Shown here: positions 18,546-19,151 of the stretch, in pieces
Numbering within the stretch: the first letter of the stretch is position 1
Layout: each line of letters opens with the position of its first letter
IMG/VR virus record: IMGVR_UViG_3300045902_000229
Span: 1 to 21,040 of that record
Source: a virus
DNA: 21,040 nt
Strand: one strand, 5' to 3'
Notes under the pieces: generated by a model
What the model was told of the DNA's origin: nothing
The model's database searches: none
What the model saw: only the letters and a program-made list of their open reading frames with translations
Made by a program: the position numbers and the translations under genes

Positions 18546-18562
18546 CTTGTATTGATAAATTC

Positions 18563-18717
18563 CATTATGTAAAAGTTATGTAAAATTGTTTTTTTAAAAT
18601 TACATAAAATAAGTTTATCAAAAAACAATTAATTAAACGCATTATGTAAAAGTTATGTAAAATTGTTTTTTTAAAATTACATAAAATAAGTTTATCAAAA
18701 AACAATTAATTAAACCC
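18563..18717. repeat. 77-bp tandem direct repeat with partial third copy
   Basis: Two copies with a 77-bp period (18564-18640 and 18641-18717) are identical for 76 bases, differing at 18639 versus 18716. A degenerate third copy begins at about 18718. Each full copy holds three octamers: TTATGTAA, TTATGTAA 11 bp later, and TTACATAA a further 24 bp on. The near identity suggests a recent duplication. Confidence 0.95.
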
Positions 18718-18766
18718 AATTATGTAAAATTATGTGAAAAATTCCTATATCTTTTTATATTATAAT

Positions 18767-18793
18767 ATTATTATTATTATTATTATTATTATT
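18767..18793. repeat. ATT trinucleotide microsatellite
   Basis: Nine ATT units in a row lie within a stretch of pure A/T from about 18751 to 18806. It is a likely easily melted segment inside the candidate origin. Confidence 0.9.
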
Positions 18794-18862
18794 ATAAAAA
18801 AAAATTACATAATTTATATAATTTTTTTGAAAAATAGAATAAAATTAAAAAAAATATCCGAA

Positions 18863-18910
18863 AAACCAATTTTACATAAAATTCAGTAATTAAAGATAAA
18901 ACATTGGTTT
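18863..18910. repeat. Inverted repeat AAACCAAT / ATTGGTTT
   Basis: AAACCAAT (18863-18870) and ATTGGTTT (18903-18910) are perfect 8-bp arms 32 bp apart, enclosing one TTACATAA octamer. They precede the densest octamer cluster (18916-18954). It could be a protein-binding pair or structure in the origin. Confidence 0.5.
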
Positions 18911-19151
18911 AAAAATTACATAAAGTTTTACATAAGTTTTACATAATTACATAACATTTGTATTAAGTCAATTAACTTAACGTTTATATATTAAAGCAAA
19001 TTATTCTTAACTCAATAAAGTAATCCATTAATATGTAATTTTTTTTCTTCGAACAAAATTATGTAAAATTAAAATTACATAATTTCATTCAATTTATCAA
19101 TTTTTACATTTTTAATTAACAAAACTAACTTTATTTTTTTGATAAAAAAAA

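Follow-up and report, generated by a model that had tools for sequence, protein, structure and literature searches.

Organization of the octamer-rich region

What is the function of a gene-free, AT-rich region beside a helicase gene in which one octamer is repeated in both orientations, and which protein would read these repeats? The window, i.e. the whole stretch of DNA that was analysed, comprises 21,040 nucleotides and represents the entire IMG/VR record IMGVR_UViG_3300045902_000229. An earlier note on this DNA had suggested a candidate iteron-type origin. The suggestion is supported by the recurrence of array position, AT-rich element and orientation switch in relatives carrying other octamers (see below). 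We consider it probable (about 0.78) that positions 18546–19151 represent a theta-type replication origin, with the adjacent helicase as octamer-binding initiator and a 127-residue protein (p127) as its likely competitor. The features of the locus are as follows.

18546–19151, no strand: proposed replication origin, gene-free, 86% A+T, 15 TTATGTAA octamers
18551–18704, plus strand: 77-bp tandem duplication, units 18551–18627 and 18628–18704, three octamers per unit
18565–18727, plus strand: left iteron block, octamers at 18565+, 18576+, 18600−, 18642+, 18653+, 18677−, 18720+
about 18756–18796, no strand: proposed DNA-unwinding element, ATT microsatellite, least stable segment of the window
18805–18954, minus strand: right iteron block, octamers at 18805−, 18872−, 18916−, 18928−, 18939−, 18947−
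19059–19082, no strand: distal inverted octamer pair TTATGTAAAATTAAAATTACATAA, just 5' of the 127-aa gene
19152–19535, plus strand: p127, free-standing paralogue of the helicase C-terminal winged-helix domain (BLASTP, profile and predicted fold)
19537–20940, plus strand: 467-aa D5-family SF3 helicase, proposed initiator; a single base separates the p127 stop from the helicase ATG
20662–20937, plus strand: helicase C-terminal winged-helix domain (predicted fold, residues 376–467), proposed octamer reader

The region is devoid of genes from the end of the terminase gene at 18545 to the start of the 127-aa ORF at 19152 and is AT-rich (86% A+T), as had been described. The 15 exact TTATGTAA/TTACATAA octamers claimed for it, in both orientations, were all recovered between 18565 and 19082. 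The count stands with the amendment that three of them are second copies stemming from the 77-bp tandem duplication, the units of which are 94% identical. Only two more copies occur in the whole window, at 2722 and 19335, amounting to 17 against 2.9 expected.

At this base composition, and with a duplication and a microsatellite present, the octamers might be no more than a side effect of AT-richness and duplicated sequence. The count was therefore compared with shuffled sequence, a check that the earlier note had proposed. Shuffles of 18546–19151 preserving dinucleotide content contained 0.31 copies of TTATGTAA on average and at most 3 in 2,000 shuffles, against 15 in the real sequence, where TTATGTAA is the commonest non-simple octamer. 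With one 77-bp duplicate removed, 12 copies were left, exceeding the maximum of 9 reached by any octamer in 1,000 shuffles. An origin of the array in composition and duplication is refuted statistically by these shuffles and is, in our view, hardly conceivable.

AATT or TTTT is found directly 3' of the octamer in all eight sites without a close follower, while the remaining octamers are followed by the next one 8, 11 or 12 bp on. Because one of these tetranucleotides thus follows every octamer outside the exact tandems, the recognised site may exceed 8 bp and extend to about 12 bp.

The ATT microsatellite reported previously is present between the two blocks and, moreover, has the lowest duplex stability in the window, whether segments of 40 bp or of 100 bp are compared (at 18757; −31.4 kcal/mol for 40 bp versus a window median of −47.0 kcal/mol). 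Octamer orientation differs on its two sides, with five plus and two minus copies to the left and one plus and seven minus to the right (Fisher p 0.04); in the window alone this split is weak, with p rising to 0.07 without the duplicated unit. Cumulative GC skew, computed as an additional check, follows the change in gene orientation near 16.75–16.9 kb, is therefore uninformative on this question and was rejected as evidence.

The helicase encoded beside the array

The array is followed 3' by a two-gene unit consisting of p127 and the 467-aa helicase. The helicase has no Pfam match of its own and shows 27–30% identity with the helicase half of BT4734-like_N/DUF5906 proteins. Its Walker A and B segments (GGCGKS and LILFDD) are conserved in 37 aligned relatives. 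It thus possesses the SF3/AAA+ core with Walker A and B that defines D5-family SF3 helicase-initiators and, as in these, iterons accompanied by an AT-rich element occupy the intergenic region beside the gene. A PDB search with the helicase sequence returned no match. The AlphaFold model (pLDDT 86) matched SaPI5 Rep (7ola, 7om0), ASFV PrimPol and poxvirus D5/E5. By this model, the helicase falls structurally among self-loading initiators, as exemplified by SaPI5 Rep, and this lends further support to the origin reading. Residues 379–462 are predicted to fold as H-H-E-H-H-E-E (pLDDT mostly 84–92, lower in the wing), so that the last ~90 residues form a predicted winged-helix DNA-binding domain.

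Iterons adjacent to rep are recognised by the C-terminal domain of SaPI Rep, and that of SCCmec Cch2 binds, in isolation, to the putative Cch2 origin (PMC7581432). P4 alpha uses a winged helix to contact the repeats of its origin (PMC4234260). By analogy with these three proteins we infer that the helicase of the window is an initiator that reads the octamer and that replication would start at the array in theta mode. The likeness to SaPI Rep and Cch2 comprises the helicase fold as modelled (matching SaPI5 Rep), the C-terminal DNA-binding domain, predicted in our case, and the short intergenic iterons adjoining the helicase gene (PMC7581432). In contrast, the window has its array upstream of the operon, with 15 putative binding sites, and between array and helicase there is a gene for a free-standing copy of the C-terminal domain. 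Like P4 alpha (PMC4234260), the protein combines an SF3 helicase with a winged-helix domain, again a predicted one, which in P4 alpha is the part that binds origin repeats. P4 alpha, however, carries a fused Toprim primase, whereas the 467-aa helicase has no primase half; a separate primase could be encoded beyond the record, which may be incomplete. The array is best read as an iteron origin of the P4-alpha/SaPI-Rep type. An iteron plasmid Rep of the Rep_3/RepA type was considered and rejected, as no Rep-family gene lies beside the iterons: neither p127 nor the helicase matched a Rep family in Pfam, PHROGs or NCBIfam.

The BT4734-like_N/DUF5906 primase-helicases, which come from Bacteroidota phages and related uncultured phages, resemble the helicase at the identity given above, and many have octamer arrays beside their gene. 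Those checked are mostly about 800 aa long with an N-terminal BT4734-like domain, in contrast to the 467 aa found here. No published origin for this family was found in the open-access literature searched, and the helicase scan of genome contigs yielded no relatives in host genomes or prophages. Another short helicase without primase half (about 467 aa) is encoded at L045:2518–3918, with an octamer array starting at the gene end. Just past the end of the window, a near-identical second IMG/VR contig (L005) encodes a small helix-turn-helix protein resembling excisionases, the gene of which is convergent with that of the helicase (L005:11825–12004).

p127 is a paralogue of the helicase C-terminal domain

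Both p127 and the helicase C-terminal domain had been named as candidate binders, and the two proved to be homologous to each other. By BLASTP, p127 is 25% identical to residues 383–443 of the adjacent helicase (E 4e-6). It scores 18.1 bits against a profile of the relatives' C-terminal domains from which the window was excluded, while 5,000 shuffles reached a maximum of 11.9. Its predicted fold, H-H-E-H-H-E, has the same order of helices and strands as the helicase domain, although the alignment underlying the model included helicase domains. Since its best match among 160 helicases is the C-terminal domain of its own phage's helicase, p127 may well have arisen by duplication within the lineage.

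Searches of the phage collection and viral contigs revealed no p127 relatives beyond L005, and none of 4,814 ORFs in the relatives is a convincing stand-alone C-terminal-domain protein; the top non-helicase match of these ORFs to the domain profile is p127 itself (and its L005 copy). Comparison with the PDB gave nothing significant by sequence and no E below 0.001 by fold. The weak winged-helix-like matches by fold, to the Cdt1 C-terminal domain and the Fur family, were given no weight as evidence.

What could such a protein do? In P4, cnr is a copy-number control gene, and most P4-like elements have the cnr family between epsilon and alpha (PMC8628076). By position, p127 beside the helicase seems comparable with this copy-number gene near alpha and is, by this analogy, probably a copy-number or autoregulatory competitor. 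Alternatively, the region could be an origin at which p127, rather than reading the octamer, serves as a loader, an accessory factor or a single-strand-binding protein. LP1413, a winged-helix single-strand-binding protein, is encoded upstream of the Cch helicase in SCCmec, i.e. in an analogous gene position (PMC7581432), and the predicted recognition helices of p127 (YNEFKKYLYKWQEL) and the helicase (RNTFTRWLKLYADL) differ. Such a role is at odds with the homology of p127 to the helicase's own C-terminal domain; no other known family and no second domain were recognised in p127. Among the alternative functions of p127, an accessory role resembling that of LP1413 ranks first, and we rate it as possible, if somewhat unlikely.

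Array anatomy in helicase relatives

It had been proposed to look for the array in related phages. The exact TTATGTAA array was seen only in the window phage and in L005, which carries the same array; the same anatomy recurs with other octamers in distant relatives of the helicase. A first set of relatives yielded 16 loci scoring at least 8. The top-scoring octamer cluster of the entire locus was situated no more than 700 bp from the helicase gene in 13 of them, whereas uniform placement would give 2.05 (p about 1e-9). A second set of 93 non-redundant relatives provided 88 testable upstream regions. At a score threshold of 6.5 or above, a cluster upstream of the helicase was seen in 23, whereas no clear upstream cluster was seen at this threshold in the other 65. 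Among regions used for comparison, the threshold was reached by 3 of 87 taken from the least-coding sequence elsewhere (p 1.4e-5) and by 8 of 261 chosen at random. The relatives point to Bacteroidota phages. The octamers of individual lineages are listed here, and further relatives carry still others beside the helicase gene.

L066: TGACGCAA
L045: TTGCCCTAA
L042, L064 and L029: CGACACAA
L044: AACTGTAA
L073 and L072: CTCAACATA
L041: CCGATTTA
L028: ACTTGCAC

Like the array of the window, the relatives' clusters are split by an AT-rich element, across which site orientation tends to switch (permutation p < 5e-5). Motif similarity tracks the helicase C-terminal winged-helix domain, not the core. 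With the core controlled for, the partial correlation with C-terminal-domain identity is 0.29 (p 0.0025), by a label permutation from which phylogeny is not fully removed, whereas that with core identity, controlled for the C-terminal domain, is 0.075 (p 0.24, same permutation). L073 and L072 are an exception in sharing a motif at only 34% domain identity.

Dense arrays of the same octamer core also occur in two unrelated IMG/VR phage records, with 20 copies of TTATGTAAC in about 510 bp (L092:13345–13860) and 12 copies of TTATGTAAT in about 420 bp (L133:6031–6452). No helicase of the family was detected in either record. The exact octamer was hence rejected as a marker of the helicase family; taken alone, it does not identify its binder.

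These comparisons bear on two other readings of the array. It might be an operator through which p127, a predicted winged-helix protein, or another regulator controls the p127–helicase operon, with replication starting elsewhere; indeed, it fills the only intergenic space upstream of this operon. However, an operator would not normally comprise as many as 15 sites spread across 520 bp and surrounding a strongly destabilised element. In L066 and L045 the array is found 3' of the helicase gene, and no Bacteroidota-type promoter was matched in the region of the window with the one strict pattern used. We regard a pure operator as unlikely; origin and operator roles are not mutually exclusive. Alternatively, the position directly 3' of the large terminase gene, which ends at 18545, could indicate a packaging or partition site, and contig L005 encodes a ParB-like protein. 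Yet neither Pfam nor NCBIfam identified this protein as a partition protein, and the arrays of the relatives, mapped relative to the helicase, sit beside its gene. A packaging or partition site thus seems very improbable.

Gene content of the near-identical contig

Contig L005 contains 2,478 bp (L005:5019–7496) that are absent from the window at 16629–16642, at a 14-bp shared sequence. The extra segment holds the rest of the ParB-like gene, QueD-, QueE- and FolE-like genes and a gene for a 250-aa protein without Pfam or NCBIfam match. Together with QueC, encoded in the window at 9770–10432, the Que- and FolE-like genes look like a 7-deazaguanine (preQ0) pathway. The join in the window fuses the start of the ParB-like gene with the end of FolE (ORF 16546–16749), reflecting either a real deletion or an assembly artefact. 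A family 2 glycosyltransferase gene (8829–9770) adjoins QueC inside the structural gene region.

A model for initiation

Returning to the origin reading, the D5-family SF3 helicase would act as a self-loading initiator whose C-terminal winged-helix domain recognises TTATGTAA. Helicase copies would act cooperatively at the left and right blocks, which have opposite orientations, form ring helicases on both and melt the ATT tract between them. p127, encoded in the same operon, would most likely bind these sites or ones that overlap them. Lacking helicase activity, it would thereby limit initiation or repress the operon that encodes it, controlling copy number much as P4 Cnr does.

Related principles are known from PLE RepA and ICP1 Odn, where origin sequence and DNA-binding domain covary and where Odn reuses the DNA-binding domain of the initiator in a second protein (PMC8263062). 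The systems differ in that RepA_N is an unrelated type of initiator and in that Odn also possesses a nuclease; in p127 no second domain was recognised. More tentatively, and at somewhat less than even odds, the origin-reading domain of the initiator may have been duplicated into a stand-alone competitor or remodeller. The array would then be both an origin and a switch that counts initiator against its truncated copy, and octamers and C-terminal domains would diversify together across the family as interchangeable origin specificities.

The locus provides a concrete candidate origin for a widespread but little-studied family of phage helicases, BT4734-like/DUF5906. Natural origin–initiator pairs carrying different octamers could be used to work out the rules by which the C-terminal winged helix recognises its sites, and the stand-alone copy of an origin-reading domain represents a simple candidate mechanism for phage copy-number control.
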